Notes under the pieces: generated by a model
Database searches by the model: none
What the model saw: only the letters and a program-made list of their open reading frames with translations
What the model was told of the DNA's origin: nothing
Assembly (NCBI GenBank): GCA_947646735.1
Contig: CANTFK010000420.1
Location: 31,534 to 95,533 of the forward strand
Source of the DNA: Peronospora farinosa
Taxonomy: Eukaryota > Oomycota > Peronosporomycetes > Peronosporales > Peronosporaceae
DNA: 64,000 nucleotides
Direction: 5' to 3'
Shown here: piece after piece, positions 1 through 39,935 of the stretch
Layout of the letters: each line of letters starts with the position of its first letter
How positions within the stretch are numbered: position 1 is the first letter of the stretch
Translations under genes and position numbers: made by a program

Positions 1-236
1 ATCGCGATCCGATATTAATTATTAGTACCGCGATCCGATGCTAATTATTAGTATCGCGATCCGATATTAATTATTAGTACCGCGATCCGATGCTAATTAT
101 TAGTATCGCGATCCGATACTAATTATTTAGTACCGCGATCCGATACTAATTATTTAGTACCGCGATCCGATACAAATTATTAGTATCGCAATCCGATACT
201 AATTATTTAGTACCGCGATCTGGTACTAAAATGGTA
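1..236. repeat. 26-27 bp tandem array inside element R (about 9 units visible)
   Basis: Units follow the pattern cgcgatccgatNctaattatt(t)agtaN, with alternating variants ending in tat or tac. The first unit is cut by the window edge. The same array has about 16 units in copy 2 (24661-25075) and about 5 in copy 3 (30241-30360), so it varies in copy number between R copies. It is direct and contiguous with no spacers. Confidence 0.9.
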
Positions 237-932
237 TTATATCCGAGCGAGGTAGCGATCCAGATCGCGGCGATATTGGAGTGGACCACATTACAAGATC
301 TGATTTTTCCGAAAGGGCGATACGTAGCAACAGATCCTGAGCTACAGATAGTCAAGATCATAGGTTTTGGTATTTGATTGGTTAACATTAATAGAGTTCA
401 ATTTGCTTCTAAATACACGTGTCGACTTCTCTTCCGGGCTGGATTCTTTGGCCTCCCGACGTCTCAAGGAAGTCTACATACTACGCAAGTCATATCCCTG
501 GATTGTTTGGCCAGGGATTACAAGAACTCTCAACAAAACAACTCAAGCTGCGATTGGACGCAGAGGACTAAGAATTCCAGATACAAGATCGCGAGACGGA
601 TCAAGTGGTCAGAAGGCAAGCGGATCAAGTATCTACATTTTTGGACAAGGCGATCTCAAGAGAGATCAGGGCGACTCAAATAGAGCACCCCAAGAACAAC
701 TGCGATCGTGTGAGGAATTCCACGCGATCGCCCCCCACCTATCCCTAACACAATCAAGTTCAACATCGACTCAAGTCTACCGAGAAGAGAGCAACCCGCC
801 CTACCGACGGGTACACAAGGTGAGGAAGGCTATACACACGGAATCGGGGTACCCCCTCCGTTAGTCGGTCGTCCGGGCGCCAGTGGAGAGTTGGGATCGC
901 ATCAGCAATTTTGCGAATCCCACTCCACCACA
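1..932. mobile_element. Element R copy 1 (right part), candidate Ginger-like non-autonomous DNA transposon
   Basis: This is the right part of a repeat seen complete at 24238-25777 and 29845-31053. It ends in CCACA at 932, and the next bases are TATG, the target duplication seen around copy 2. Copy 2 shows imperfect terminal inverted repeats starting TGTGG. TGTNR ends with 4-bp target duplications are features reported for Ginger DNA transposons. No conserved protein is encoded; the open frame at 367-864 has no recognisable domain. It interrupts the RT of the gypsy element at 933-5004. The alternative is a solo LTR, since the ends are also TG...CA. Confidence 0.6.
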
Positions 933-1860
933 TATGCAAATAATTGGCAAGGCCAAGCCACTTACGCAAGTACTTCTGCGACTGTGAAACAGGCCAATCG
1001 ACGATGGATTTGACCTTAGCGAGATCCGCTCTGATGCCTTTCTTCCCAATGAAGCACGTTGAAAAAGGAATCTCTTCGACCCCGAAAATGCACTTAGATG
1101 CACTATCATCAAGCTTATTAGTGCGCATGCACTCGAGCACAGCTCGTAAATGAACAATATGATTCTCGGTATCCGACCGCCCATGTCCAGCACGACTATG
1201 GACAAAAATGTCATCAAAGTACGTCTGTGCATAATTTCGATGGGGTCGAAACAATTGCTTCACCAAACGGGTAAACGTAGCCGGAGCATTAGATAGCCCC
1301 TGGGGCATCACTAACCGCTCCTAGAGCACACCGCTTGGAGTACTAACAGCATTAATCGGAATATCACTAGCTCGCATGAGCAATTGGTAATAAACATCGA
1401 CTAAGTCGAGCGCACTGCACATGGTACAACCGACCATATTGTTCTAAAGAACATCCTTTCTGGGTATTGGCGTCTGTGCAGGTATAGTGGCTGCATTGAT
1501 CTTATTATAAGCGTGAACAATACGCCAATTATCATTCGATTTCTTGACACAGAATGTCGGTGTCGAGTGCGGAGATTTGCTCTCGCGCACCATACCCGCC
1601 GCGTGCTTTGCACGAAAGAACTCGTCAATGACGTCACAATGTTCTTTGGGTAAAGGCCACTGCCGTGTTACACAGTATTTGGTTCCGGGAACCAAGTCAA
1701 TCTCATGACGTACACCTTTATCAGGAAGTAGAACAGACGGTGGATCATGGCACACCACGTCCTGAAATACCTTAACTAAAGGATAGTAGGGATCTGAAGG
1801 GTCCTTCACAATAGATGCCCCACTACGTGCACCAAGCGCCGCCTTGGTATCGTCAAGTAC
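933..1860 (-). pseudogene. Reverse transcriptase of family A copy 1, broken
   Basis: This is the gypsy RT domain read right to left. The fingers region is at 1809-1444 (motif VTRQWPLPK, then SPHSTPTFCVKK). The palm is at 1311-940, with MPQGLSNAPATF and the intact active site YFDD at 1221-1210. Between them, around 1440-1310, there is a frame change and an in-frame stop. The frame runs to the conserved ANYLH motif and is then interrupted by element R. In an intact element RNase H would follow. It is recognised by RT motifs and by its near-identity to 25782-26654. Confidence 0.85.
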
Positions 1861-1941
1861 CTCATCTATAAGCGAGGATTAGCTCAGCTCGAGGCTAGGT
1901 TGCATGACCACCATATCAGATCGATCCCCAGTCTTCAAGGC

Positions 1942-2643
1942 TTAATGAATTTCACACACAAACATTTCGTCTAGCTCTAAGAGAGCGTTAAATGATGAAA
2001 GGACTCCAAGGTCAACCTCACCATCTACGTCACCTGTCACTACGTGAAACAGGATATACAACTGGTCAATGACATCACTACGAGATAAAATAGACGCCTT
2101 GCGTCTCGCAGCCTCCATCTGGCGACGCTGCTGTCTCATTGACTATACCGTACCTTTTATAGTAATTTGGATACCATCACACCTAAGCTCGATATATGCC
2201 TTGACCTTAACCTGCTCTATACTCGAGCCGATGTCATTGCCGACATCCAATGAGTCATCGTCACATGTGACATCATCACTAACAAGATCTTCTACCTTAG
2301 CTTTCTCTATACGAGAGATGATGTCATTACCGACATCTAGTCAATCGCTATTGCTGCAAATGTCACTAACAAGGTCATCAACCTTAACTTGCTCTATCCT
2401 AGGGCCGATGTCATTACCGACATCCAGTGAATCGCTATTTCAGAAAATGTCACTAATAAGGTCATCGATCCTAACTTGCTCTATACGAGAGCCGATGTCA
2501 TTACCGACATCCAGTGCCTCAGTATTACTATGAGTATCATTCAACGGAGTACGTGCCGCTCCACTAGGTATCACTGAGCTCTGCTCGACACTATTATTAT
2601 TGACATTGGAGTTTATCAATTCAGACACTCCAATGTCCAGCAC
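1942..2643 (-). repeat. Tandem repeats in the protease-RT linker, family A copy 1
   Basis: On the minus strand this encodes repeated blocks around LDVGNDIGSRIEQVKVDDL with a spacing of roughly 96 bp, four to five copies, acidic and low in complexity. Two blocks carry in-frame stops. It joins the protease to RT. Families B and C have unrelated tandem repeats at the same place. Copy 2 (26787-27488) differs from copy 1 mainly in one block near 2450-2500, as expected for slippage or conversion inside repeats. Confidence 0.75.
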
Positions 2644-2682
2644 ACTAACTGACTCAGTTAATGGCTCGCGCCAATAGCACTT

Positions 2683-3090
2683 TTATTTCCTAGCAAAGGT
2701 GGGTTCATGACTCTCCAAAGCTTCGCTAGGAACACTGCGCGTTGCGCCTAAGGTTTTGGATCTCCAATCGATCCACGGCTCATGGCGTTCCAGCCAGGCC
2801 ATACCGAGAATGAGATCATATCTCGAGTCCAAATCTAGGACAAGACATCGTTCAACGCTATTGAAGTCTAAAAAATTCACACCTAAGCTCAACGGAACTT
2901 TAGGAACGGTGACACATACACCTGTAGCGAGACGAACGGTTATACTGTCACTCCTCTTGCGCTTTTAGCGCCTCAGCATACAGCTGACTCCCTTCAAGGG
3001 ACCGACGCCGGACATAATTACCCGACGCCCCTGATTCAATTAGAATTGGCCATGTTTCTCAAAGCCTTTAGCGGTTGCCGACACAACCAA
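2683..3090 (-). pseudogene. Retropepsin-like protease of family A copy 1, with Asp-to-Glu at the active site
   Basis: The C-terminal half reads YDLILGMAWLERHEPWIDW at about 2835-2780, the usual flap and ILG motif of gypsy proteases. The active-site motif lies at 3036-3022 and reads E-S-G-A-S, where the family has D-S/T-G-A. A frame break separates the two parts near 2960. Copy 2 has the same Glu, so it predates the duplication of the element. Family membership is clear; activity is doubtful. Confidence 0.7.
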
Positions 3091-3189
3091 CAAGCCTGGC
3101 TTGTTTTTCTGCTCCATGGAAGCATCCACAGAACCACCTGGGGCTAAGCCCTGTTTACATATACCTCTTATAGGTTTACAAAACTTAAA

Positions 3190-4216
3190 TCTTTTCTAGT
3201 AGGGCGCCCCGCACCTACTGGGAGCTGACGTTTTCCCCTGCCGTGATCGCCTTTTGGCTAGGAGTAGGAGTACGGCTCTGCTGATTCTGACGTTGCTTTC
3301 GCAACGGAAAGCTAGGGCGGATATGCCTAGTGATTCCGCACATGTAACATCTACGGATGTTACTTTGCTGCTCAGCAGCTTGAAGCTCAGCTTCTTCAGC
3401 ATGGCTGAGGTCCATGGTTCCGCCCTGTTAGAAGCATTTGAATCATACGATGGTAAACCATAGCGAGCAGATTTGAAATTAAATTCAGCGTTAAACGCTA
3501 TGCTTACTGCCTCTTCGAAAGTCGAAGGCTGGACACGGAAAACTTCTGTCCTGGCGACCCCAGTACAAAGTCCTTTCACAAATATAATTACTCGCACTTC
3601 CTCTGCCAGATGGTCCTGCTGCATAGCAGCAAATGCGAGTTCTCAACTCTTGGACATGTTCCGACAATTTTTTATTACCCTGTCGAGTAGCTAAGAAGCG
3701 TGAGCGCACATGGTAAGCCTGATTAGGCGGTGCAAACACGCAATTTACTTGATATTTAAGCATTTCCCATGTGGAAAATGCGGCGTTTACAGAGACATCG
3801 CTCGTTAGAGCTCACTCTCTAGCTCTCACACCGAGCTTAGAAATGGCCAAGCCAACTCGTTGCTTATCTGGAACAAGCATGGCGGCATCCATTGCCATTT
3901 CAACTTCTCGGATCCAGAGGAGAAGATTTTCTCCCTCCTTCCCCTCAAAGGTCTTTACGTTTAAAACGAGTGGGCGAGCCTTTGGCTCTGCATCAGGCAC
4001 AGGTACCGGGATGTGCTGTGTAGGCGCAGCTGACGCTGCCTGGTCATGGACCTGCCCGAGTAGCGTTGCCTCATAACGCATAAAGGCCTTAAGGCGAGCA
4101 TTGAGGACCTCTGAGCGTCGGGCCAAAAGGGCCTCTATTTGATCGGGCCCAACGAATGCAGATAATTTATCTAGTGCGAGTCGTTGCGCCTAAGAGAGGT
4201 GATTTTGATTCTCCAT
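3190..4216 (-). pseudogene. Gag of family A copy 1, broken
   Basis: The ATG is at 4216. Codon 9 is TAG, whereas copy 2 has GAG. The frame then continues through the capsid-like region ([20 protein letters not shown]) to about 3812, shifts frame in 3763-3491, and shifts again to 3624-3196. The C-terminal zinc knuckle reads C-Y-M-C-G with a His, but the last Cys is replaced, so the CCHC is incomplete. Gag normally forms the particle and binds RNA. Confidence 0.8.
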
Positions 4217-4258
4217 CCTCACAGAGGGTCAGTCTTAAAGACTCAGGTGTAGGATTGA

Positions 4259-4275
4259 CTACTAGTGCTACCAAG
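4259..4275 (-). other. Primer-binding site of family A copy 1
   Basis: Immediately inside the LTR, the minus strand reads CTTGGTAGCACTAG. The same TGGTAGCAC follows the 5' LTR in families B, C and D. It would pair with a tRNA 3' end GTGCTACCA. Which tRNA that is cannot be told from this window. Confidence 0.6.
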
Positions 4276-5004
4276 TGCAGCGGAGCTGCACAGCTCTTTA
4301 ACCAGAGGAAGACTTTAGGCTGAAAGCCTCTTAGTTCTATAGAACAATCAAAAGTTACGGCTAAAAGCCACTTTGTTCAAAGGAACTAATTAAACGACTT
4401 AAAAGTCACCCTGTTCTAAGGAACGAGGAAAGAGACCTTTAGTATACAAGTAATAAGCTTAAGGTTCAGAGAACCAACGCACAGAGTGCAAGAACAAGCT
4501 AGAAGCTTAAAGGTTCATAGAACCAACGCACGAATTGCACAGGAGAACAAGTCAGAACGACTTGAGAACTAATTTTATTTATGCATTGAGATTTTATGAT
4601 TAATCCTACTCTTAGTACCCTACACTAAATTAATTACTATAACAGTAATTATAATATGCAGACTTCGTTATGGGACAATGTGTCGTCTTAACATCTGTGT
4701 ATGATGTACTTAGTACAGCGTTCTCGACTATCGAATCGTAATCGATAAGATACGGTATTACCGAATACCGTAATCGATAAGATACGGTATTACCGAATAC
4801 CGTATCTTAACGATTACGATTCGATAGTAGAGGTATTAAGTATAAGCGTTAAAGATACGGTATTACCGAATACCGTATCTTTAACGCTTATACTTGATAC
4901 CTCTCTAAAGAGAAGTAGTATCAAGCATACATTATATGCAATTAAGGAAACTTCAGCCGTAAACTTTTGGAATGATTTTCCAACCGTCGTGTACCCCGTT
5001 ACAT
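4276..5004 (-). mobile_element. 5' LTR of family A copy 1 (729 bp)
   Basis: On the minus strand it starts TGTAACGGGG at 5004 and ends ...CTGCA at 4276, directly followed by the primer-binding site. It is longer than the two LTRs of copy 2 (591 and 638 bp), mainly through extra palindromic sequence at 4728-4903. The stretch 4276-4560 is a string of short hairpins. The outer flank is a copia gag relic; no target duplication can be tested because the other LTR is outside the window. Confidence 0.85.
4728..4903. repeat. Expanded palindromic module in the LTR
   Basis: The last hairpin has 35-nt arms at 4830-4864 and 4869-4903 with a 4-nt loop and one mismatch. Just before it, the motif gatacggtattaccgaatacc is repeated inside another inverted repeat. 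The matching place in copy 2 (29590-29660) has only one short stem, so the module grew in copy 1. Confidence 0.85.
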
Positions 5005-11871: not shown

Positions 11872-12476
11872 TGTAACAGGGTATCTAGTTACACGTAAAC
11901 ATTAAGTAATATACTTAATGTTTGGTCTAAAAGTATCCATGATTACTTTTCACCTATCACTTGGGTGCGATACACAAATGTGATCCACCCTCGTGAATGT
12001 GATATCCATTTATGGATTCACATGAGAAGGGATGACGCTAGTTGAAGCTACGCATCACGACGTCTCAGAAGGACGTCAGTTGCGATCTTAAATCTAGATT
12101 TAAGATCATGCGACAGGATACGCTTCTAAAGAGTCGCGTATCCGATCAATATATATATATATATATAGCCAATCAGTAGTTAAGTATATATTTAGTTATA
12201 ATTAATTAAATATAGCTCAGTCTTGAATTTACTTCAACAAACGCACCACGCACGAGAAGTTGAAAGACTTCTGCGTGACGTCGGTGTTATAAGTGTTAAG
12301 AAGTTCGTTGCACTCTCGCTTAAGCGAGAGGCAACTGGTGGTACGACTGCTTAAGCAGTCGACCAACCTCCCAACCACCCTCGCACGCGAAGGTAAGACG
12401 GTATAACCGCTTCCTCGCTTGTGCATAAGGTGTGTGCTCGTAGTACGAGGCAACTTCGTAGAAGTGCCCGTCTACA
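11872..12476 (+). mobile_element. 5' LTR of family B
   Basis: It starts TGTAACAGGG and ends CTACA. It is made of serial palindromes, for example cattaagta/tacttaatg, the perfect 24-bp gatcttaaat/ctagatttaagatc near 12090, gatacgc/gcgtatc, ctctcgctt/aagcgagag near 12315 and gactgctt/aagcagtc near 12350. An AT microsatellite lies at about 12151-12167. Confidence 0.92.
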
Positions 12477-12477
12477 C

Positions 12478-12490
12478 TTGGTAGCACTAG
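12478..12490 (+). other. Primer-binding site of family B
   Basis: TTGGTAGCACTAG directly follows the LTR end. It is the same TGGTAGCAC as in families A, C and D, so all four likely use one tRNA primer. Confidence 0.6.
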
Positions 12491-12535
12491 TAGTCCTTCC
12501 CACGACCCGTCTCTCTGAGCGTGCATGTGGTTGAC

Positions 12536-17192: not shown

Positions 17193-18411
17193 CGGACTGC
17201 GTCATCCTCGAACGCCAGTCTCGTTTGTACGCAGCCCGAGTCTTAGTGGGGGAGGGCACCTCACTTCCTCGGTGCAAACGCCAAAAAGGGCCAAGGTTGC
17301 CCTAGTGACACTGCTACTTTAGCAGTGGTCACGTAAATCAAAGAGGAGGCACGGCAAGAAATGCCAGCGCTCCTCGATGATGACACTATAGTGTTATTAA
17401 CAGCGTCGACCCATGAACGACCTCTTGGAGGCTTCATAGGCGAGATGGATGCTAAAAGAGTGAGCGAAGCTCAGCGCTTTGTGGATGAGCGATCAGCCAT
17501 CACACATTAAGCTCAGTGACGCAATTTAAAGCGCACAGGATAAGCAAAAACAATATGCAGACCAGCATGGTCGCAAAAACAATGAACACTTTAGTGTGGG
17601 GGACAAAGTGCTATTAAGTACTGCTACCCTACCTAAACATGAAATTTCTGTACTACCTGGTGGTACTACTAAGATATTGCCCCGGTTCATTGGGCCCTTT
17701 ACAGTGGTTGAAGAAGTTGGAGACCTAAACTATAGGCTCACTCTCCCACCGTATATGAAGTCGCACCCCGTATTTTACGTGGGTCGTCTGAAACGGTATG
17801 TTGATCCAGAAGAGATCACATATCCACATCGATCTAACGAGACCGATGGTGAAGTCGACTGTGAGTCGAGCGTCGCGGCCGATCAGGCGACGAGGAATCC
17901 GAGAGGCTCCCCGTATACGAGCTAGGCGATAGAGGACTCGGCGATCGAGGGGGACTCCGCGCTTGACGCGGGTCTCTCATCATCAGTCGCTCTAAGATGT
18001 CCAAACGGGTCTTCAGGCGGTCATACCCCTGACGGTCCCTCGCCCTCACATCGCGCATATCCGAGGTCAGTCGTGAGACTTGACTCTCGAGATCTGCCAC
18101 CTGCCTCTTCAGCGCAGCGGACTCATCCTTCGACTGAACAGCAGCAGGATAGGCAGCCGCGATTAGGTGGGCGTAATCGCCGCTCCTATCGGGCGCCACC
18201 TGTGTTGGTGGACACGGAAGGGAATACGCGCTTCCTTGTTGGAAGGCTGTTGGCCCACCGGTTTTTGAAGCGGAAGCTCCAAATCCTTGTCCAATGGAAG
18301 GGTTACCCAACGAGCTTTGACTCGTGGGAGCCTGTGGACGCTTTGCGCGTCGACGTGCCTGGGCTGGTGGCTGCTTATGTGAAGCAGCACCAGCTGTCTT
18401 CTTTCTACTAG
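17193..18411 (+). pseudogene. Integrase C-terminus and chromodomain of family B
   Basis: After the frameshift, 17200-17590 has several stops. An open part at 17596-17925 carries GDKVLLST, RFIGPFTVVEEVGDLNYRL and HPVFYVGRLKRY, the usual integrase tail. The chromodomain is in the frame of 18073-18411: RFLVGRLLAHRF, then ILVQWKGYPTSFDSWEPV. Chromodomains steer integration to histone-marked chromatin. The opposite strand of 17834-18601 is open and encodes the antisense coiled-coil protein. Confidence 0.8.
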
Positions 18412-19279
18412 GTCCGGAAGGACTAGCAGAAGAAGCGTGGCGAGAATTAATTGGGGGTCGCTTACCGCCCATAATTTCATGTGCACGCTTCATGGCGAAG
18501 CTGATTCGCTGCGACCGCTGTTTTGTTGCATCTTCATGCAAGGTAACACGGCGCCGAAGTTCAGCTTCATAGTCGTCGGCTGTTTCTTTAGAACGCAGCA
18601 CGACTGGAATTGGGAAAGCACGACCAAGTGCTTTGCCCTGCTATTTCCACAAGGGAAAGACGCTATAGAATCTATGAGCGTCTATAGTGGCACGCTGTAA
18701 AAGCGCTGCGATAGACCCATCTGAGTTCATCCACTCGCATGGAGGTGGCATTGGTGGCAAGCCACCACTCACGTAGCCGCCCTCGCGATGGCGGGCTAAT
18801 GAGACCGAAGGTGTACTTGGTGGAGCTTTAAGCTCACACTCACCTGAGTCTGACTCTCCATTATGGATTGTCAAGACATCAGCTTGAGAAGTTAAATCTG
18901 ACTGAGTCGCGAATACTCCTTTCGAAGTAGCGCGCTCAGTCTTAGTCGCTGCGCTCGTAGGCGCAGACGACGGGGGTTTTCCTTCGCTTGTAGGAAGCAT
19001 AGATGCTTCCTCAAGGACGGGTGCCTCAAATGATGGGGACATATGTCCCATCAATGCACTATGCTCATCGCCACTTTGGGGTGATGGCAGTGGTGTGGTC
19101 TCGTTGTAGTCTACAATGAGAGATGGATCTTTATCCACATTATAGTGAGATGAAAGATTCGCCTCAGTGCCTGAAGCACATTGCGACGGCTGCGATAAAT
19201 TGCGGCGCGTGCGCTTAGTGATGGACTGCATGGGCGCCTTTGCAGGCGACCCATCAGCCTTCTCACGTTTCGGTGGCAT
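17834..19279 (-). pseudogene. Antisense ORF of family B (482 codons, one stop), disordered plus coiled coil
   Basis: On the minus strand one frame runs from the ATG at 19279 to the TAG ending at 17834, broken only by a TAG at 18643-18641 (codon 213). The ATG lies 105 bp inside the 3' LTR. The N-terminus is basic (MPPKREKADG, TKRTRRNLS). Then come a long Ser/Pro/acidic region, an arginine-rich block (KETADDYEAELRRRVTL), a Ser/Pro/Arg region, a coiled coil (ALKRQVADLESQVSRLTSDM) and an Arg/Ser tail. No known domain was recognised. It overlaps the sense chromodomain. A similar antisense frame exists in family A at 21050-22333. The function is unknown; a nuclear regulator is only a guess from layout. 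Confidence 0.6.
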
Positions 19280-19384: not shown

Positions 19385-19988
19385 TGTTACAGGGTATCTA
19401 GTTACACGTAAACCTTAAGTAATATACTTAATGTTTGGTCTAAAAGTATCCATGATTACTTTTCACCTGTCACTTGGGTGTGATACACAAACGTGATCCA
19501 CCCTCGTGAATGTGATATCCATTTATGGATTCACATGAGAAGGGATGACGCTAGTTGAAGCTACGCATCACGACGTCTCAGAAGGACGTCAGTTGCGATC
19601 TTAAATCTAGATTTAAGATCATGCGACAGGATACGCTTCTAAAGAGTCGCGTATCCGATCTAATATATATATATATATAGCCAATCAGTAGTTAAGTATA
19701 TATTTAGTTATAATTAATTAAATATAGCTCAGTCTTGAATTTACTTCAACAAACGCACCACGCACGAGAAGTTGAAAGACTTCTGCGTGACGTCGGTGTT
19801 ATAAGTGTTAAGAAGTTCGTTGCACTCTCGCTTAAGCGAGAGGCAACTGGTGGTACGACTGCTTAAGCAGTCGACCAACCTCCCAACCACCCTCGCACGC
19901 GAAGGTAAGACGGTATAACCGCTTCCTCGCTTGTGCATAAGGTGTGTGCTCGTAGTACGAGGCAACTTCGTAGAAGTGCCCGTCTACA
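19385..19988 (+). mobile_element. 3' LTR of family B
   Basis: It is nearly identical to 11872-12476, with a few substitutions near the start and a small change in the AT microsatellite (about 19663-19679). It ends CTACA at 19988. The antisense gene would have to be driven from this LTR. Confidence 0.92.
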
Positions 19989-20347: not shown

Positions 20348-20938
20348 TGTAGCGGAGCTGCACAGCTCTTTAACCAGAGGAAGACGTTAGGCTGAAAGCC
20401 TCTTAGTTCTATAGAACAATCAAAAGTTACGGCTAAAAGCCACTTTGTTCAAAGGAACTAATTAAACGAATTAAAAGTCACCCTGTTCTAAGGAACGAGG
20501 AAAGAGACCTTTAGTATACAAGTAATAAGCTTAAGGTTCAGAGAACCAACGCACGAAGTGCACAGGAGAACAAGTCAGAACGACTTGAGATCTTCAACTC
20601 AAAATGAAAGATGATTTTATTCATGCTTTAAGATTTTATGAATAGTCCTACTCTAAGTACACTACACTAGATTAATTACTATAATAGTAATTATAATATG
20701 CAGACTTTGCTATTGGACGACGTATCGTCTAAACATCTGTGTATGATGTACTTAGTACAGCGTTCTCGACTATCGAATCGTAATCGATAAGATAAGGTAT
20801 TACCGAATACCGTATCTTAACGCTCGTTCTTAATACCTCTCTAAAGAGAAGTATCAAAATGCATTATATGCAATACAAAGGGGACTTTAACCGTAAACTC
20901 TCGGAAAGACGCTACAATCGTCGTGTAACCCCGTTACA
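20348..20938 (-). mobile_element. 3' LTR of family A copy 2
   Basis: On the minus strand it starts TGTAACGGGG at 20938 and ends at 20348. It is preceded by the polypurine tract GGTGGGGGAGAG (20939-20950). It is 591 bp and contains the same mini-hairpin string as the other family A LTRs. Confidence 0.88.
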
Positions 20939-21049
20939 CTCTCCCCCACCAGACTGACGTTCCCATAGAATGTCACTCGACATTTTTCCTCTTAGAGGTA
21001 GTGCTTTAGCGAACACTTAAAACCTCACGGTTTGTTCACGGCATATAAC

Positions 21050-22333
21050 ATGACGCCTCCTGGCAGTGAGTCACAGACTCTTCGGGACCTCGTTGACGAC
21101 AACCTTGACGAAGCGGTTGATTACGAAAGTGACACCGTCTTTGTGGGACCCGATGGGTCCCCTTTAGCCACCCTCACGGGTGAAGATGACACTAGTCATG
21201 CACCGAATCCGTTTCCTGAACGTGGTGCTGCAGATGCGCTAACAGCGTTACGTGACCCGCCTGAAGTGTCATCAACGGTAACGGTTACCAACCCACTCGA
21301 CGAGCGGCAACAGAAGGCCATCGACCAAGAGGAATGCGCCAAGCGCCGGACGAAGAATATGGCGAGACTTCAGGACCACCGAAAGTACAGGTTCAAGCCA
21401 CCTACGGTGGAAGAACGCCTAAAGGAAGCAACTGGGCATTCCCTTTCTGGCTGTACCATTGGGCCTGAGGCCATTTCACCTGAGGATGTTGCCACGCGAA
21501 CGGCACTTCGAAAACGATATCTGGAACCCCACATTACTACACAAAGCCAATACTTGGCACGCCTTAACAGGCAAGTGCGCGGTGCGCCAGTTCCTCCCAT
21601 AAAGGGTGTTCCCATCCTTCGGTTCGCGGGGAAAACCGAGGACGAAGAAGACACGGCTTTCAGCCGCTGGGCGCATTATGCGTGACGTTTAAGCAGCATG
21701 TGGGCCCTACGGGCAAGTGCCGATGTGGCAGATGTTCGACTCGAACGGAAAATGCGTTACGATTACGCTAAACTGAAAGCCCGTGAAAAATTGAAATCTC
21801 AACGAACGCATTATGTGTCTGCTACCTAGCACCCCAATTTTTCGGCTTCACCTGTAGCCGAGAGTTTACGACAGGCCGAGGCCGCTAACTCGCCTACACC
21901 CACCACTACTAATGAGAAGCGTCAGCGCCAACAGGCTGACCCTGCGCACGACGCTCAAAAAAGTCCACGGCGTATAAGCAATCCTGCCAAAGGGGAACCT
22001 CGAACTCCCATGAGTCTCACGACTCAGAATATCCCCGCCACTTCACCAGATACTGGTTTTGACCATGGCGGCGACGTTTCTGCAACAGACGTTCAACACA
22101 GAACTGAAGCTTCCCCTGTCCATCAAGCAAAGCCGGAGGAGGCCGGTGTATCGGCACAAGCTCATGCCGAGCTTCTTCAAGAGGTGCGGTTTCTACATGA
22201 AGATATGCATTCGATGAACTCCCGTCTTGAATCACTGGAAGAGAGCCGAACCCAAATGCAGGGTCAGCTTGACCTGTTAGTGCCGATGCTTCGTCCCGCG
22301 ATAATGCCGATGAACTCGGCGCGAGAGCCTTAG
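21050..22333 (+). pseudogene. Antisense ORF of family A copy 2 (428 codons, two stops)
   Basis: One plus-strand frame runs from the ATG at 21050 to the TAG at 22331, opposite to pol. It is broken only by TGA at 21683-21685 (codon 212) and TAG at 21827-21829 (codon 260), with no frameshift. The ATG lies 111 bp inside the 3' LTR. The parts are an acidic N-terminus (MTPPGSESQTLRDLVDDNLD), a charged middle (DERQQKAIDQEECAKRR), an Arg/Lys block (VADVRLERKMRYDYAKLKAR) similar in pattern to family B, a Thr/Pro/Asp region, and a C-terminal coiled coil (AELLQEVRFLHEDMHSMNSR). The last third overlaps the chromodomain on the other strand. No known domain was recognised. Confidence 0.6.
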
Positions 22334-22637
22334 CGTCTATTTGGGACGGATCCCGATATGGTTTTAGCATGCCGACGTAGAACACAGGATGTGTACGCAG
22401 TTTGCGCGGCAAATTAAGCGTATACGCTAGGCCTTTCTTGGCAAAGACCGTAAAGGGTCCGATAAAGCGCGGACGCAACTTCGTCTTACACCACATCAAT
22501 AAGTAGGTCCTTAGAATTAAGTAAGACTTGGTCTCCGACCTCATAGTAATCAATACAACTTCGGCCTTTCGCATCTGCATATTCTTTTTGTTTGTCTTGA
22601 CTATCAGCCATTGCGTCTTGCACATGTCGTAAGACAT
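21940..22637 (-). pseudogene. Integrase C-terminus and chromodomain, family A copy 2
   Basis: The minus-strand frame 22637-22017 has RFIGPFTVFAKKGLAYTLNL, HPVFYVGMLKPYRD and the chromodomain start (LQFCVERLLQKRRRHGQNQY, LVKWRGYSES). A TGA at 22019-22017 stops it inside the chromodomain. The same frame then continues D-S-W-E-F-E-V-P, the usual chromodomain end. The stop is a serine codon on the antisense strand. Confidence 0.8.
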
Positions 22638-23600
22638 TCCGTCGCGTTGCGAGAAACACCTTCACCTGTTCCTTAACAGTAATAAGGCTGAAATCAGCAA
22701 GCCGATCGGCAACCTCTCCTCCACCAAGCCCTGAACCACTCGGTGGTAGCGTTAACGGAACGCGTGGGTGTGTGAGGCCATTCACATAGAACGGAGTGTA
22801 GCCGGTAGAGGCGTGCACGAAGTCATTAAGTGCAAACTCAACTACAGGGAGCATAGAGCTCCATCGCTTAGTCGTTACAGCACAAAAGCTGCCAGGGATA
22901 TCCTCAACGACTTGATTAACACGTTCAGTTTTACCATTGGTCTGAGGATGATCCGCTGTAGACATGTCCAAACGGGTGCCCAGTACCTGGAAGACGGACT
23001 TCCAAAATTTACTCGTGAAACGTGCATCACGGTCATAAACAAGTGCCACTGGCAAGCCATGTTGGCGAAATACTCGGTCGATAAACAGCTCCGCTGTACC
23101 TACACCATCGATCGAGTCTGGCACAGCCTCTAAGTGAGCCATCTTGCTCAAACGGTCCACAAAGACCACAATACCTGTATTGCCATGCGAATCTTTTGGT
23201 AGGCCAAACAGAAAGTCCATATTAATGGACTCCCAGCACCCAGTGGGAATAGGCAAACTAGCCAGCGGCGCTGCCGAATGGGGCGGGGGTTTCACCCTGT
23301 TGACACATTTCACACGTACGCACATATGTGCTCACTCCTTTATATAATTTGGGCCACCAATAACTTTGGCATACTTCCCCATAGGTCTTTTTGCGACCCA
23401 AATGACCACCGGTGGCGGTGTCATGTACCTCATAGAGGATACGATACTTCAGGTCCTCGTCATGAGAAGCCACAATACGCGGAGGATTCGCCACATCTGT
23501 ACAATAGTACAACAGCCCCTGATCGATAGAATATCGATGGAGGCTCGCACGTAATCGTGCTGACAATTTAATGTACGAGTCTTTAAGCTCATCGCTGCCA
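22486..23600 (-). pseudogene. Integrase, family A copy 2
   Basis: The zinc domain is in 23566-23258 (GGHLGRKKTYGEVCQSYWW, then C-E-M-C). The core is in 23325-22486. The DDE residues sit in INMDFLFG, VYDRDARF and NGKTERVN. A frame change occurs between the two frames near 23290. VYDRD replaces the usual VSDRD and NGKTE the usual DGQTE, so activity is uncertain. Confidence 0.85.
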
Positions 23601-23632
23601 AGAGCATATAAAAACGCTATACAATGATCGTC

Positions 23633-24233
23633 TTAAGCGTATGCCGTACGAATGAGATTGGTGATAGAAGACGACAACGTCGTAACATGAGCAAGCTCAT
23701 AGTCAGGTTTGCGTGACAACGCATCAGCCAAAGAATTTTGCTTGCCCGGATTATGTTTCACCTCGAAATTATATTCAGTAAAGAATGACAGCCATCTGGC
23801 CATTCTCTGCGAGAGATGTGGCGACTGAGTCGCAGTGGGTAAAGACGCATGATCGGTATAGATCACAAAAGGCTTCGAGCCCAGCAGATAAACTCTGAAT
23901 TTGACTAGAGCATACTTCATTGCAAGTAGCTCTTTGTCATGAACTGGATAGTTCCTTTTTCAAGCTTTCAGCTGGCGAGATTCAAAAGCGATCCACGCCC
24001 ACGGCCTTCACCATCTGTTTGTAACAGAGCACTTCCAATGGCAAAATCCGACGCGTCACAGACGACGCTAAACGGTCGTACAGGGTACGACAAAGCCAAA
24101 ATAGGAGCTTGAAGATGGCTTGAGTTCACCGCTTGAAAAGCATCCTCATGTTCGGCATGCCAACACCATCCCACATCCTTTTCAAGGAGATTGGATAATG
24201 GCCGAGCCATATCAGCGTAATTTTTGCTGTACG
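23633..24233 (-). pseudogene. RT end and RNase H, family A copy 2
   Basis: This starts right after R with TYSKNYADMARPLSNLLEK, then RNase H motifs VVCDASDFAIGSALLQ, YTDHASLPTATQSPHLSQRM and SLADALSRKPDYE. A frameshift lies near 23960. It completes the RT interrupted at 25782. Confidence 0.85.
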
Positions 24234-24237
24234 TATG

Positions 24238-25777
24238 TGTGGCGAAGTGAAGGAGTGAATTTCGCAAAGTGTGATTGCATATTTTCGGTTAAGTCCGAAA
24301 TGGCCAATATTAATGAGTCGCGATCTCGTGGCCAATATTGATGAGTCGCGATCTCGCAGAAAGGTTTCAAGACGATGTCAAATAGGATGGAAAACAGTGA
24401 ATGGTGTAGTTTGCACTTCTATGTGGGGTCAAATATGGCCTAGAAACTACGCTATTGCGATCTCCAGTATTTCCAATGGCGATCCGCGTGGATCAAGATC
24501 GCTAAGGAGGAGGATGGGTACATCCAAGCATGTGGAAGACGGTCTGGTGTGGATCACGTCGCTATGGAGGATTGGAATGGTGGATATGATATGTCACATA
24601 GATGAATTATCTCACATGACCTGAGAAACGGTGAAGAGGACAAGTCGTGATCCGACGGATCGCGATCCGATGCTAATTATTAGTATCGCGATCCGATATT
24701 AATTATTAGTACCGCGATCCGATGCTAATTATTAGTATCGCGATCCGATATTAATTATTAGTACCGCGATCCGATGCTAATTATTAGTATCGCGATCCGA
24801 TACTAATTATTTAGTACCGCGATCCGATGCTAATTATTTAGTACCGCGATCCGATATTAATTATTAGTATCGCGATCCGATACTAATTATTTAGTACCGC
24901 GATCCGATGCTAATTATTTAGTACCGCGATCCGATATTAATTATTAGTATCGCAATCCGATACTAATTATTTAGTACCGCGATCCGATACTAATTATTTA
25001 GTACCGCGATCCGATACAAATTATTTAGTACCGCGATCTGGTACTAATTATTTAGTACCGCGATCTGGTACTAAAATGGTATTATATCCGAGCGAGGTAG
25101 CGATCCAGATCGCGGCGATATTGGAGTGGACCACATTACAAGATCTGATTTTTTCGAAAGGGCGATACGTAGCAACAGATCCTGAGCTACAGATAGTCAA
25201 GATCATAGGTTTTGGTATTTGATTGGTTAACATTAACAGAGTTCAATTTGCTTCTGAGTACACGTGTCGACTTCTCTTCCGGGCTGGATTCTTTGGCCTC
25301 CCGACGTCTCAAGGAAGTCTACATACTACGCAAGTCATATCCCTGGATTGTTTGGCCAGGGATTACAAGAACTCTCAACAAAACAACTCAAGCTGCGATT
25401 GGACGCAGAGGACTAAGAATTCCAGATACAAGATCGCGAGACGGCTCAAGTGGTCAGAAGGCAAGCGGATCAAGTATCTACATTTTTGGACAAGGCGATC
25501 TCAAGAGAGATCAGGGCGACTCAAATAGAGCACCCCAAGAACAACTGCGATCGTGTGAGGAATTCCACGCGATCGCCCCCCACCTATCCCTAACACAATC
25601 AAGTTCAACATCGACTCAAGTCTACCGAGAAGAGAGCAACCCGCCCTACCGACGGGTACACAAGGTGAGGAAGGCTATACACACGGAATCGGGGTACCCC
25701 CTCCGTTAGTCGGTCGTCCGGGCGCCAGTGGAGAGTTGGGATCGCATCAGCAATTTTGCGAATCCCACTCCACCACA
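24238..25777. mobile_element. Element R copy 2, complete (1540 bp), target duplication TATG
   Basis: TATG lies at 24234-24237 and again at 25778-25781. The left end is tgtggcgaagtgaaggagtg; the right end on the other strand is TGTGGTGGAGTGGGATTCGC. With one 8-nt gap the ends share TGTGG, GGAGTG and TTCGCAAA in order, so they form imperfect terminal inverted repeats. TGTNR ends and 4-bp duplications fit the described Ginger transposons. R has no convincing coding capacity; it would need a transposase from elsewhere. It carries the variable 26-27 bp array. The alternative is a solo LTR. Confidence 0.75.
24661..25075. repeat. 26-27 bp tandem array in R copy 2 (about 16 units)
   Basis: Sixteen contiguous units of the cgcgatccgat type. 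The last two read cgcgatctggtac. The higher-order order of variants (gct/att/act) suggests expansion in blocks. Confidence 0.9.
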
Positions 25778-25781
25778 TATG

Positions 25782-26690
25782 CAAATAATTGGCAAGGCCA
25801 AGCCACTTACGCAAGTACTTCTGCGACTGTGAAACAGGCCAATCGACGATGGATTTGACCTTAGCGAGATCCGCTCTGATGCCTTTCTTCCCAATGAAGC
25901 ACGTTGAAAAAGGAATCTCTTCGACCCCGAAAATGCACTTAGATGCACTATCATCAAGCTTATTAGTGCGCATGCACTCGAGCACAGCTCGTAAATGAAC
26001 AATATGATTCTCGGTATCCGACCGCCCATGTCCAGCACGACTATGGACAAAAATGTCATCAAAGTACGTCTGTGCATAATTTCGATGGGGTCGAAACAAT
26101 TGCTTCACCAAACGGGTAAACGTAGCCGGATCATTAGATAGCCCCTGGGGCATCACTAACCGCTCCTAGAGCACACCGCTTGGAGTACTAACAGCATTAA
26201 TCGGAATATCACTAGCTCGCATGAGCAATTGGTAATAAACATCGACTAAGTCGAGCGCACTGCACATGGTACAACCGACCATATTGTTCTAAAGAACATC
26301 CTTTCTGGGTATTGGCGTCTGTGCAGGTATAGTGGCTGCATTGATCTTATTATAAGCGTGAACAATACGCCAATTACCATTCGATTTCTTGACACAGAAT
26401 GTGGGTGTCGAGTGCGGAGATTTGACCTCGCGCACCATGCCCGCCGCGTGCTTTGCACGAAAGAACTCGTCAATGACGTCACAATGTTCTTTGGGTAAAG
26501 GCCACTGCCGTGTTACACAGTATTTGGTTCCGGGAACCAAGTCAATCTCATGACGTACACCTTTATCAGGAAGTAGAACAGACGGTGGATCATGGCACAC
26601 CACGTCCTGAAATACCTTAACTAAAGGATAGTAGGGATCTGAAGGGTCCTTCACAATAGATGCCCCACTACGTGCACCAAGCGCCGCCTT
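25782..26690 (-). pseudogene. Reverse transcriptase, family A copy 2
   Basis: This is almost identical to 940-1860. The fingers are at 26654-26289 and the palm at 26156-25785. The active site YFDD is intact. The frame break and stop between the two parts are shared with copy 1. It has one Ala-to-Asp change in the motif before ATF (LSNDPATF). Confidence 0.85.
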
Positions 26691-26786
26691 TGTATCGTCA
26701 AGTACCTCATCTATAAGCGAGGATTAGCTCAGCTCGAGGCTAGGTTGCATGACCACCATATCAGATCGATCCCCAGTCTTCAAGGC

Positions 26787-27488
26787 TTAATGAATTTCAC
26801 ACACAAACATTTCGTCTAGCTCTAAGAGAGCGTTAAATGATGAAAGGACTCCAAGGTCAACCTCACCATCTACGTCACCTGTCACTACGTGAAACAGGAT
26901 ATACAACTGGTCAATGACATCACTACGAGATAAAATAGACGCCTTGCGTCTCGCAGCCTCCATCTGGCGACGCTGCTGTCTCATTGACTATACCGTACCT
27001 TTTATAGTAATTTGGATACCATCACGCCCAAGGTCGATATATGCCTTGACCTTAACCTGCTCTATACGCGAGCCGATGTCATTGCCGACATCCAATGAGT
27101 CATCGTCACATGTGACATCATCACTAACAAGATCTTCTACCTTAGCTTTCTCTATACGAGAGATGATGTCATTACCGACATCTAGTCAATCGCTATTGCT
27201 GCAAATGTCACTAACAAGGTCATCAACCTTAACTTGCTCTATCCTAGGGCCGATGTCATTACCGACATCCAGTGAATCGCTATTTCAGCCAATATCACTA
27301 ACAAGGTCATCGACCTTCACTTTATCTTTACGAGAGCCGATGTCATTATCGACATCCAGTGCCTCAGTATTACTATGAGTATCATTCAACGGAGTACGTG
27401 CCGCTCCACTAGGTATCACTGAGCTCTGCTCGACACTATTATTATTGACATTGGAGTTTATCAATTCAGACACTCCAATGTCCAGCAC
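26787..27488 (-). repeat. Protease-RT linker repeats, family A copy 2
   Basis: Same repeat blocks as 1942-2643. The block at 27285-27360 differs from copy 1 at about ten bases in a row (KDKVKVDDLVSDIG in place of IEQVRIDDLISDIF), much more than the rest of the element, suggesting block conversion. Confidence 0.75.
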
Positions 27489-27527
27489 ACTAACTGACTC
27501 AGTTAATGGCTCGCGCCAATAGAACTT

Positions 27528-27935
27528 TTATTTCCTAGCAAAGGTGGGTTCATGACTCTCCAAAGCTTCGCTAGGAACACTGCGCGTTGCGCCTAAGGTT
27601 TTGGATCTCCAATCGATCCATGGCTCATGGCGTTCCAGCCAGGCCATACCAAGAATGAGATCATATCTCGAGTCCAAATCTAGGACAAGACATCGCTCAA
27701 CGCTATTGAAGTCTAAAAAATTCACACCTAAGCTTAACGGAACTTTAGGAACGGTGACACATACACCTGTAGCGAGACGAGCGGTTATACTGTCACTCCC
27801 TTGCGCTTTTAGCGCCTCAGCATACAGCTGACTCCCTTCAAGGGACCGACGCCGGACATAATTACCCGACGCCCCTGATTCAATTAGAATTGGCCATGTT
27901 TCTCAAAGCCTTTAGCGGTTGCCGACACAACCAAC
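27528..27935 (-). pseudogene. Protease, family A copy 2, same Asp-to-Glu change
   Basis: The E-S-G-A-S motif is at 27881-27867 and YDLILGMAWLE near 27665. A frame break lies near 27795, as in copy 1. Confidence 0.7.
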
Positions 27936-28033
27936 AAGCCTGGCTTGTTTTTCTGCTCCATGGAAGCATCCACAGAACCACCTGGGGCTAAGCCCTGTTT
28001 ACATATACCTCTTATAGGTTTACAAAACTTAAA

Positions 28034-29060
28034 TCTTTTCTAGTAGGGCGCCCCGCACCTACTGGGAGCTGACGTTTTCCCCTGCCGTGATCGCCTTTTG
28101 GCTAGGAGTAGGAGTACGGCTCTGCTGATTCTGACGTTGCTTTCGCAACGGAAAGCTAGGGCGGATATGCCTAGTGATTCCGCACATGTAACATCTACGG
28201 ATGTTACTTTGCTGCTCAGCAGCTTGAAGCTCAGCTTCTTCAGCATGGCTGAGGTCCATGGTTCCGCCCTGTTAGAAGCATTTGAATCATACGATGGTAA
28301 ACCATAGCGAGCAGATTTGAAATTAAATTCAGCGTTAAACGCTATGCTTACTGCCTCTTCGAAAGTCGAAGGCTGGACACGGAAAACTTCTGTCCTGGCG
28401 ACCCCAGTACAAAGTCCTTTCACAAATATAATTACTCGCACTTCCTATGCCAGATGGTCCTGCTGCATAGCAGCAAATGCGAGTTCTCAACTCTTGGACA
28501 TGTTCCGACAATTTTTTATTACCCTGTCGAGTAGCTAAGAAGCGTGAGCGCACATGGTAAGCCTGATTAGGCGGTGCAAACACGCAATTTACTTGATATT
28601 TAAGCATTTCCCATGTGGAAAATGCGGCGTTTACAGAGACATCGCTCGTTAGAGCTCACTCTCTAGCTCTCACACCGAGCTTAGAAATGGCCAAGCCAAC
28701 TCGTTGCTTATCTGGAACAAGCATGGCGGCATCCATTGCCATTTCAACTTCTCGGATCCAGAGGAGAAGATTTTCTCCCTCCTTCCCCTCAAAGGTCTTT
28801 ACGTTTAAAACGAGTGGGCGAGCCTTTGGCTCTGCATCAGGCACAGGTACCGGGATGTACTGTGTAGGCGCAGCTGACGCTGCCTGGTCGTGGACCTGCC
28901 CGAGTAGCGTTGCCTCATAACGCATAAAGGCCTTAAGGCGAGCATTGAGGACCTCTGAGCGTCGGGCCAAAAGGGCCTCTATTTGATCGGGCCCAACGAA
29001 TGCAGATAATTTATCTAGTGCGAGTCGTTGCGCCTCAGAGAGGTGATTTTGATTCTCCAT
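28034..29060 (-). pseudogene. Gag of family A copy 2
   Basis: The ATG is at 29060. The first frame is open to 28656 ([20 protein letters not shown] to GVRARE), then shifts to 28607-28335 and again to 28441-28040. Unlike copy 1, codon 9 is GAG. The zinc knuckle is degenerate in the same way (last Cys lost). It is a broken capsid protein. Confidence 0.8.
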
Positions 29061-29119
29061 CCTCACAGAGGGTCAGTCTTAAAGAATCAGGTGCAGGATT
29101 GACTACTAGTGCTACCAAG

Positions 29120-29757
29120 TGCAGCGGAGCTGCACAGCTCTTTAACCAGAGGAAGACTTTAGGCTGAAAGCCTCTTAGTTCTATAGAACAATCAAAAGTT
29201 ACGGCTAAAAGCCACTTTGTTCAAAGGAACTAATTAAACGACTTAAAAGTCACCCTGTTCTAAGGAACGAGGAAAGAGACCTTTAGTATACAAGTAATAA
29301 GCTTAAGGTTCAGAGAACCAACGCACAGAGTGCAAGAACAAGCTAGAAGCTTAAAGGTTCATAGAACCAACGCACGAAGTGCACAGGAGAACAAGTCAGA
29401 ACGACTTGAGATCTTCAACTCAAAATGAAAGATGATTTTATTCATGCTTTAAGATTTTATGAATAGTCCTACTCTAAGTACACTACACTAGATTAATTAC
29501 TATAATAGTAATTATAATATGCAGACTTTGCTATTGGACGACGTATCGTCTAAACATCTGTGTATGATGTACTTAGTACAGCGTTCTCGACTATCGAATC
29601 GTAATCGATAAGATACGGTATTACCGAATACCGTATCTTAACGCTCGTTCTTAATACCTCTCTAAAGAGAAGTATCAGAATGCATTATATGCAAAAAAAG
29701 GGAACTCGACCGTAAACGTTCGGAATGACGTTATACCCGTGGCGTAGCCCCGTATTA
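29120..29757 (-). mobile_element. 5' LTR of family A copy 2
   Basis: The start near 29757 is decayed (gtagccccgtatta instead of gtgtaaccccgttaca). The inner end at 29120 is followed by the TGGTAGCAC primer site (29111-29119). It holds the mini-hairpin string and a single short gatacggtatt stem. Confidence 0.85.
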
Positions 29758-38400: not shown

Positions 38401-38711
38401 AAGGTTGCTGCCGATGCACCTAATACTGGTAATTTCGTGAACAACGGCATATCTACTCCTGACGCGATGCTTTCCATCGCGTCCTCCGTTGCCAATTTTG
38501 CTCCAAAGGAGAATACGTCGCCTGTAAGTTCGGCTGCAGTAACCGAATCCTACTATTACGACAAGGAATCACGCGTTTTGTGCGTGATGCATTACAAGGG
38601 GCAGTCAACAAGCAAATGGAGAATGCAGACAGAAGAGGTCGAAAGAAAATGTTGATATTTTGAGAAGGTGACAGAGTATTATTATTAACAAGTGGATTAC
38701 CGAACACCTCA

Positions 38712-39935
38712 GTGACGAATTTGGGCGCTAATAAGTTAGAGCCAAGATATATTGGTCCATTTCGGGTTGGTAAGGTGCATGGTGACGCTTACACGCTAGA
38801 CATACCTACATCTATGCGTTTGCACCCGACGTTCTACGTCAGGCGCCTCAAGGCTTACCTGCCGGCGTATCTCCCTTCGAATCTTCCCCGCTCTTCTGTT
38901 CCGGCTCGAAATCCGACATCCCTTGACGACGAAGTTGACGACGACTGGGACCAAGTCCTGCCCGAACGCGTGCAGACTCGATCTGCTGGGGCCCTCCGAA
39001 CGCAGTCGTCTCATGTTGACGTCGGCGCTCAACCAGTACCTGCTGCTCACGTCGAGTCCGCTCAGCAGCCTCAGTCGCAGCATCCGCACGATCTTGAGCT
39101 CTTTCATCCATCTCGCGAGCATCAAGTAGGGCATTCTTCGACTCCTCGGCTTCAGCGCGGAGTAGGCGCAGCTCATCATTCGACTGTACAGGCGCCCGAT
39201 TACGAGAATCGGCGCTCATCGCCAGAGGCCTTCCGTCGTGATGCTCCTCCTCCATTAGTCGATGCATCGGGTGCGCGACGCTGGATTGTCGACCGGATTG
39301 TCGATCACGAGGATCACAAGTCCCAGGCGCTGAGTAATAAGTCGGCGCCCTTGAAGAAGCGTGTCGAGAAACATTACAGGGTTCGCTGGTTGGGATTTTC
39401 CCCGGCGGACGATACATGGGAGCCATCGAGTACGCTGTCCCAAGATGTCCCGGACGTGGTCGAGGACTACGAGTCCCGTAGAAAGAAGGTGATCGCGAAC
39501 GACGCTGCCGGTTCCATCACCGATCTCGCGAGCCGTAATGCTCGCGAGCAACGAAACCACGACGACCTCCCGAGCGACTCCGAGACCGAGACCTATTACG
39601 AGGATCGGGAGCATATGGATGATACGGTTGACGACCTCAGCTACGTGAATGCCGTCGGCGATCGTAAGGACGCGCGCTCACTCGCCGTAGCTCGGACACC
39701 TGGAGCTCCGAAAGGCTTCTCTCATAACGGGAAATCCATGGACGAACATGCCTCGCGCACACACCAAGTCGTCCCATTCCTGCCGGACCGTTCGCGATCT
39801 GCCCACGTTGCACGTTGGACATCCCTCACGAATGTGGACGTAACAAAGGTGATACTCGTCACAAGTCATACGACAGATGCGCCGGCGCAGGTCGCCAATA
39901 GCGTGTCTATCACGCGTTCCCTCGCGACCGTCTAA
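38712..39935 (+). CDS. Integrase tail and chromodomain of family C, 407 open codons
   Basis: It begins with RYIGPFRVGKVHGDAYTLDI and LHPTFYVRRLKAYL. A low-complexity part (residues 70-180) is the reverse of the antisense coiled coil. The chromodomain (RRWIVDRIVDHEDH, then YRVRWLGFSPADDTWEP) is near residues 195-250. About 150 further open codons are acidic and end SITRSLATV. A preceding frameshift separates it from the integrase core. Sense and antisense overlap over more than 1 kb here. Confidence 0.75.
   Translation: MTNLGANKLEPRYIGPFRVGKVHGDAYTLDIPTSMRLHPTFYVRRLKAYLPAYLPSNLPRSSVPARNPTSLDDEVDDDWDQVLPERVQTRSAGALRTQSSHVDVGAQPVPAAHVESAQQPQSQHPHDLELFHPSREHQVGHSSTPRLQRGVGAAHHSTVQAPDYENRRSSPEAFRRDAPPPLVDASGARRWIVDRIVDHEDHKSQALSNKSAPLKKRVEKHYRVRWLGFSPADDTWEPSSTLSQDVPDVVEDYESRRKKVIANDAAGSITDLASRNAREQRNHDDLPSDSETETYYEDREHMDDTVDDLSYVNAVGDRKDARSLAVARTPGAPKGFSHNGKSMDEHASRTHQVVPFLPDRSRSAHVARWTSLTNVDVTKVILVTSHTTDAPAQVANSVSITRSLATV

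Follow-up and report, generated by a model that had tools for sequence, protein, structure and literature searches.

What is encoded by the long open reading frame (ORF) at 21050..22333 of a 64,000-nt stretch of Peronospora farinosa DNA (this whole stretch is called the window; its genome amounts to 46.85 Mb), a frame that runs on the + strand of a Ty3/gypsy retrotransposon, element A, itself read on the - strand? An initial annotation of this frame, ORF A, had described 428 codons, final stop included, with two stops and no frameshift, opposite pol on the side of the 3' long terminal repeat (LTR), and the comparisons reported here bear out both descriptions. ORF A evolves as a protein-coding sequence in the antisense direction, conserved across Peronosporaceae, and is almost certainly a real protein gene under selection; the window holds a decayed copy of a gene that is intact elsewhere in the genome. 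As a whole explanation, we consider it probable that ORF A represents an accessory gene, antisense to gag-pol, carried by chromodomain gypsy elements of oomycetes. Its parts, in window coordinates, are as follows.

21050..22333, + strand: ORF A, decayed antisense copy, 427 codons and a final TAG; codons 212 (21683-21685) and 260 (21827-21829) are in-frame stops
20939..21049, + strand: leader of ORF A, 111 nt from the 3' LTR to the ATG, read from the sequence
21050..21907, + strand: codons 1-286, the section past the pol end, constrained in the antisense frame
21293..21799, + strand: core domain, predicted folded, codons 82-250
21725..21784, + strand: basic helix, codons 226-245
21944..22105, + strand: predicted disordered linker, codons 299-352, facing the pol chromodomain
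22154..22291, + strand: predicted coiled coil, codons 369-414

The search of the genome with ORF A gave 150 scored matches from 510 candidates, of which the 30 best-scoring loci were fetched for comparison, with the uninterrupted copy L004 as reference and the window copy designated L001. Seventeen of these 30 loci align over all 427 codons with no stop and no gap, a share that is not a genome-wide estimate because the loci were chosen by score. Of these seventeen, 15 also have an open pol frame on the opposite strand as far as the locus end. The window frame aligns with L004 over 427/427 codons without a gap, and therefore no frameshift is present. Over the 858 nt beyond pol in L004 (equivalent to window 21050-21907), the ORF A frame has 0 stops, the remaining two + frames contain 11 and 19, and the three - frames 11, 7 and 14; in the divergent uninterrupted copy L071, which has 53% amino acid identity to A, the same section shows 0 stops in the ORF A frame and 8-22 in the other five. 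The initial annotation had named two findings that would speak against a gene, namely a lack of homologues and random indels, and neither was obtained: L071 differs from L004 only by in-frame indels over 424 aligned residues, and a database search gave 70 homologues of the ORF A protein and a profile search 48, the latter including Phytophthora sojae, fragariaefolia, palmivora and cinnamomi. They are known in Peronospora, Hyaloperonospora and Phytophthora, and the most conserved block, RRLSSM.ALRAS..VADVRLERKLRYDYAKLKARGQL, lies within the core (codons 82-250).

The ratio of non-synonymous to synonymous substitution rates (dN/dS) against L004 over codons 1-286 was 0.13-0.54 in nine of nine comparisons (L071 0.23, L072 0.32, L073 0.54, L074 0.27, L001 0.42, L026 0.38, L025 0.24, L020 0.16 and L006 0.13), and the differences from L004 fall mainly at the third antisense codon position (positions 1/2/3: 75/77/157 in L071, 34/21/64 in L072, 26/21/58 in L074). 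When each pair's changes were re-scattered 1000 times and the synonymous counts compared, the observed count was reached in 0/1000 cases for L072, L074, L020 and L018, and in 19/1000 for the window copy. Variants common to at least two of the 30 copies are distributed 17/10/57 by position and private variants 41/34/56 (p 0.0012); this third-position bias of the shared variants, less marked in the private ones, indicates constraint during propagation, relaxed after insertion. That the N-terminus is not explained by overlap with pol, as the initial annotation had remarked, is supported by an antisense-frame constraint over codons 1-286.

The host of ORF A is a Ty3/gypsy LTR retrotransposon with a chromodomain: two LTRs, a polypurine tract, reverse transcriptase, RNase H, integrase and a C-terminal chromodomain were all found, the chromodomain ending the pol of the host element (PF00385, E 2.4e-12). 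ORF A sits between pol and the 3' LTR, with pol opposite its 3' part, so that the two genes overlap tail to tail at the pol C-terminus. The features of the element in the window are listed below.

20348..20938, - strand: 3' LTR of element A, a repeat shared with 29120-29753, with TG...CA ends
about 29120..29753, - strand: 5' LTR of element A, by its repeat match to the 3' LTR
20939..20952, - strand: polypurine tract CTGGTGGGGGAGAG, adjoining the 3' LTR, recognised by its sequence
22017..22661, - strand: C-terminus of pol, window copy, with SH3_Tf2-1 (PF24626, E 1.1e-12) and a truncated chromodomain (PF00385, E 2.4e-7, Pfam)
22486..23331, - strand: pol integrase core (PF00665, E 2.4e-6, under its curated cut-off)
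23258..23959, - strand: pol RNase H and integrase zinc-binding domains (PF17917, E 8.7e-17; PF17921, E 2.7e-20)
25605..26165, - strand: piece of pol reverse transcriptase (PF00078, E 1.3e-10)
28040..29072, - strand: gag-position frames of A, placed by position and by eye; two tested pieces gave no Pfam match

The LTR pair has identities of 94.5% (418 columns) and 97.7% (215 columns). The 5' part of element A is present twice in the window (1-4772 versus 24845-29635, 98.1% identity over 4792 columns), and an array of tandem repeats of ~27 nt lies inside both internal regions of the element, at 73-261 and 24659-25106. A putative primer-binding stretch, CTTGGTAGCACTAGTAGTC, follows the 5' LTR and is common to element A and to a second family, B (window 29090-29130, - strand, and about 12476-12505, + strand).

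In the overlap with pol, antisense positions 1, 2 and 3 face sense positions 1, 3 and 2, respectively, so the strand under constraint can be read from the codon position of the changes. Opposite the chromodomain (codons 299-352) the changes fall at sense position 3 (antisense positions 1/2/3: 7/20/12 in L071, 8/12/3 in L072, 6/18/4 in L074, 2/15/2 in L073). In the coil segment (codons 367-415) the fewest changes are at the sense wobble site (21/10/28, 16/5/17, 19/3/20 and 7/2/11 in the same order), and the two segments differ with p values of 0.0014 (L071), 0.0020 (L072), 1.9e-6 (L074) and 7.7e-5 (L073). In the comparisons of divergent copies, the sense frame is therefore conserved over the chromodomain and the antisense frame over the coil, a divided constraint by which pol keeps its chromodomain and the antisense protein its coil; for the close copies L006, L018, L020 and L007, these segments contain too few changes for a judgement. 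The placing of the coiled coil over the chromodomain, proposed in the initial annotation, has to be corrected: the coil (about 22154-22291) faces the spacer that separates the SH3-like domain of pol from the chromodomain, and the chromodomain (about 21944-22105) faces the linker that is predicted to be disordered. In a mirror test, the linker of antisense proteins was scored for compatibility, in the same phase, with the chromodomain of A on the other strand; eight of the eight tested linkers, two from P. sojae and one from P. fragariaefolia among them, were compatible beyond 2000/2000 controls each. As the Phytophthora linkers stay compatible with a chromodomain in the same phase, the arrangement appears to be old.

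Several observations weigh against a protein gene that is conserved in this way. One - frame (offset 2) shares the wobble site and gives near-equal counts (for L072, 53 synonymous and 60 non-synonymous changes); the counts alone cannot separate the two frames, and the - frame is excluded because it has 7 stops in L004 and 9 in L071. The core of L073 has a dN/dS of 1.14, perhaps from a local frame slip. All pairs contain L004 and some copies may have a common ancestry, so the pairs are not independent. Across the overlap as a whole (codons 287-427) the antisense dN/dS ranges from 0.54 to 3.72, which means that this half is not conserved as a protein overall and that only the coil segment is constrained in the antisense frame; for the coil, the contrast between shared and private variants is not significant (p 0.21). 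Finally, seven of 19 proteins lack a strong mirror signal, three of the seven being B proteins compared with the chromodomain of A.

A comparable gene is found in family B, for which the genome search gave 150 scored matches from 993 candidates.

17834..19279, - strand: antisense ORF B, 480 residues around an internal stop at 18641-18643, then a stop codon

The 3' LTR of B starts at 19385, which leaves 105 nt between it and the ATG. In uninterrupted form the B protein is 481 residues long, with 14 database matches, and in the copy L045 pol ends opposite codon 291; phase to pol and anatomy are the same as in A. Set against L045 over codons 1-280, 18 of 19 B copies differ most at third positions (a count without statistical test), and changes in the overlap with pol are too few to judge. 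The initial annotation had taken A and B for the same kind of gene, and the profile comparisons support this for the core domain: the core of A against that of B scored 45.7 and 40.0 with hhalign, the best of 100 column shuffles 22.6 and 16.5 and the reversed controls 14.5 and 15.4 (the comparison of A1 with A2 gave a probability of 96.5%). The coil halves, at 19.8 versus 21.1 for a reversed profile, do no better than the control. Judged from these profiles, the cores are homologous and the resemblance of the coils gives no evidence of common descent. The proposed match of Arg/Lys blocks did not hold either, since in the profile alignment the block of A aligns with TKQRSQRISFAMKRA of B and not with ADDYEAELRRR. 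The pol of a further family, C (window 38664-39935, + strand), has a chromodomain followed by ~150 further residues, and in the window family C gave no antisense match to A or B.

The locus L071 (G000:C58:175900-178000), with L075 and L076, carries a divergent antisense ORF of 440 uninterrupted codons. The 5' flank of this ORF is LTR-like, and all that is left of pol is a truncated remnant; the ORF directly adjoins an MCM-type helicase gene in the same reading direction, and a family C element lies on the other side; domestication or recent truncation is possible. Two further copies, L077 and L078 (G000:C186:226617-227249 and G000:C200:296899-297531), contain 6 and 7 in-frame TGA codons. They looked hypermutated, but the base counts show no C-to-T excess, and a local frame slip is therefore likely.

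As for the product, an antisense transcript would very probably arise from the LTR region, beginning in or beside the 3' LTR and running into the element, and would be translated into a soluble protein of ~430 residues. The predicted layout comprises an acidic disordered N-terminus (net charge -14 for residues 1-81), a helical core ending in a basic helix (+6 for residues 226-250), a disordered linker and a C-terminal coiled coil. In the AlphaFold2 model, the predicted local distance difference test (pLDDT) is 76-95 per ten-residue block in the core (82-250) and about 95 in the coil (369-414), with disorder elsewhere; the overall pLDDT is 65.9 and the predicted template modelling score (pTM) 0.36. 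A Pfam scan of the A protein (E up to 1) found no domain, including no basic leucine zipper (bZIP) and no TRP28 (PF04195), and the B protein has no TRP28 match at E up to 0.01. We tentatively propose, at somewhat under even chances, that the protein binds nucleic acid and regulates the element that encodes it; the coil would mediate self-association and the core nucleic-acid binding, and the target of its action in trans would be either the expression or the replication complex of that element. Two points count against this proposal, namely that the case for nucleic-acid binding is built solely on charge and helix prediction, and that fold searches found no match, a Ty1 capsid domain at E 8.2 being noise.

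The helical core, basic helix and coil predicted by the model would fit equally well a structural or assembly accessory in the particle or pre-integration complex, such as a second capsid- or nucleocapsid-like factor or an integrase partner, and the gene is retained where the opposite pol is open (the 15 of 17 copies above). We nevertheless regard this as unlikely, given the same empty fold searches, the separation in time from Gag-Pol that antisense expression would impose, and the recognisable gag (Pfam PF03732) found in the sense direction in family B, which shows that a second gag is not needed. Less likely still is an anti-defence role, in which the protein would suppress small-RNA or chromatin silencing, or in which antisense transcription itself would be the function and the protein its modulator. 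Antisense transcripts of retrotransposons can feed silencing, so an element making them would gain from a suppressor, and small RNAs matching transposable elements have been reported for P. infestans (PMC3522703); against this, the Pfam search of A gave no homology to known suppressors.

A captured host gene, or a host family hit by gypsy insertions and kept by selection at the host level, seems quite improbable. L071, being uninterrupted, divergent and flanked by a pol remnant and a host gene of the MCM type, speaks for it, but the same locus has LTR-like 5' sequence, the A and B genes start nearly equidistant from their 3' LTRs (111 and 105 nt) in the same phase to pol, and selection is seen in the variants of active lineages and not in private ones, as element-level selection predicts. 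There is very little room for a chance frame produced by base composition and the opposite pol and making nothing: long antisense frames over coding genes are common and antisense conservation is poor when the overlap half is taken as a whole, but 286 of the 427 codons extend past pol into DNA in which the five alternative frames of L004 have 7-19 stops, and the codon-position bias, the simulations, the 70 homologues and the relation to B all contradict it. An env-like or membrane protein, suggested by the coiled coil and the location between pol and the 3' LTR, can practically be dismissed, since the gene is antisense to pol and the most hydrophobic 19-residue stretches (Kyte-Doolittle mean 0.89 in A and 0.79 in B) imply no transmembrane segment.

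Antisense genes in the slot between pol and the 3' LTR are already known. As far as literature searches show, this protein family, the chromodomain elements of oomycetes as its hosts and the division of the overlap have not been described; among the open-licence papers listed, none reported an antisense ORF from oomycete retrotransposons, which is not proof of absence. Among LTR elements, antisense genes have been described in deltaretroviruses, HIV-1 and one plant lineage. A broader and more speculative scenario, which we consider less likely than not, is that of an antisense regulator dating from the common ancestor of Phytophthora and downy mildews or earlier, independent of Retand and human T-cell leukaemia virus (HTLV), forming a new family with an undescribed fold, set tail to tail on the chromodomain, with mutually locked genes and copy-number control. 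If this were true, the ordered part of each protein would face the disordered part of the other, so that losing either gene would harm the other, and the regulator would control how many copies there are of the repeats that are most abundant in these genomes. With a third protein family, unrelated to the others and from a third kingdom-level lineage, the antisense slot between pol and the 3' LTR would look like a site where regulators arise repeatedly. The divided overlap offers a clean natural case in which codon phase shows, segment by segment, the selected strand of antiparallel genes. The mirror test can be reused, since an opposite-strand chromodomain is readable from protein records alone. 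Downy mildew and Phytophthora gene sets carry these proteins as uncharacterised proteins of the host, but they are retroelement genes.

In oomycetes, Chronos and Archon are likewise Ty3/Gypsy elements whose pol ends in a chromodomain (PMC5348765). They have two RNase H domains, one archaeal-type (PMC5348765), whereas the window copy of A shows one between reverse transcriptase and integrase: only RT_RNaseH followed by Integrase_H2C2 was seen at 23258-23959, in a decayed copy whose pol was scanned in part. The word antisense is absent from the main text of that paper (PMC5348765). In bdelloid rotifers, the ORF3 genes resemble ORF A as family-specific accessory genes after pol, some with a coiled coil (PMC5408684); they are separate units from spliced messages, enzymatic or env-like, and the passages on them describe no antisense genes (PMC5408684). 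The HBZ gene of HTLV-1 also runs inward from the 3' LTR, and its product has an acidic N-terminal part, a basic stretch and a C-terminal coil and lowers the expression of its own virus (PMC10186651). HBZ is described there as a bZIP factor whose basic region adjoins the zipper, whereas in A the predicted basic helix and coil are ~125 residues apart; A has no bZIP match and no sequence relation to HBZ. The Retand (Tat) gypsy elements of plants, including maize Grande and rice RIRE2, have, in the slot between pol and the 3' LTR, a protein frame antisense to gag-pol that is conserved from species to species; it has been proposed to act as a regulator, and the Grande protein is nuclear (PMC11963269). 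Retand elements are non-chromoviruses with a pol-LTR region of 2.9-6.6 kb and TRP28 in 97% of clusters (PMC11963269). The host of ORF A, in contrast, has a chromodomain, a unique region of <1 kb and a gene that overlaps pol and lacks TRP28. The antisense gene of Grande is reportedly transcribed from its own promoter, going by the title of a cited study. With its place beside a 3' LTR, its acidic tail, basic helix and coil, ORF A would work most like the antisense proteins of the deltaretroviruses and of Retand/Grande, but it belongs to neither group, TRP28 and bZIP having been sought without a match.
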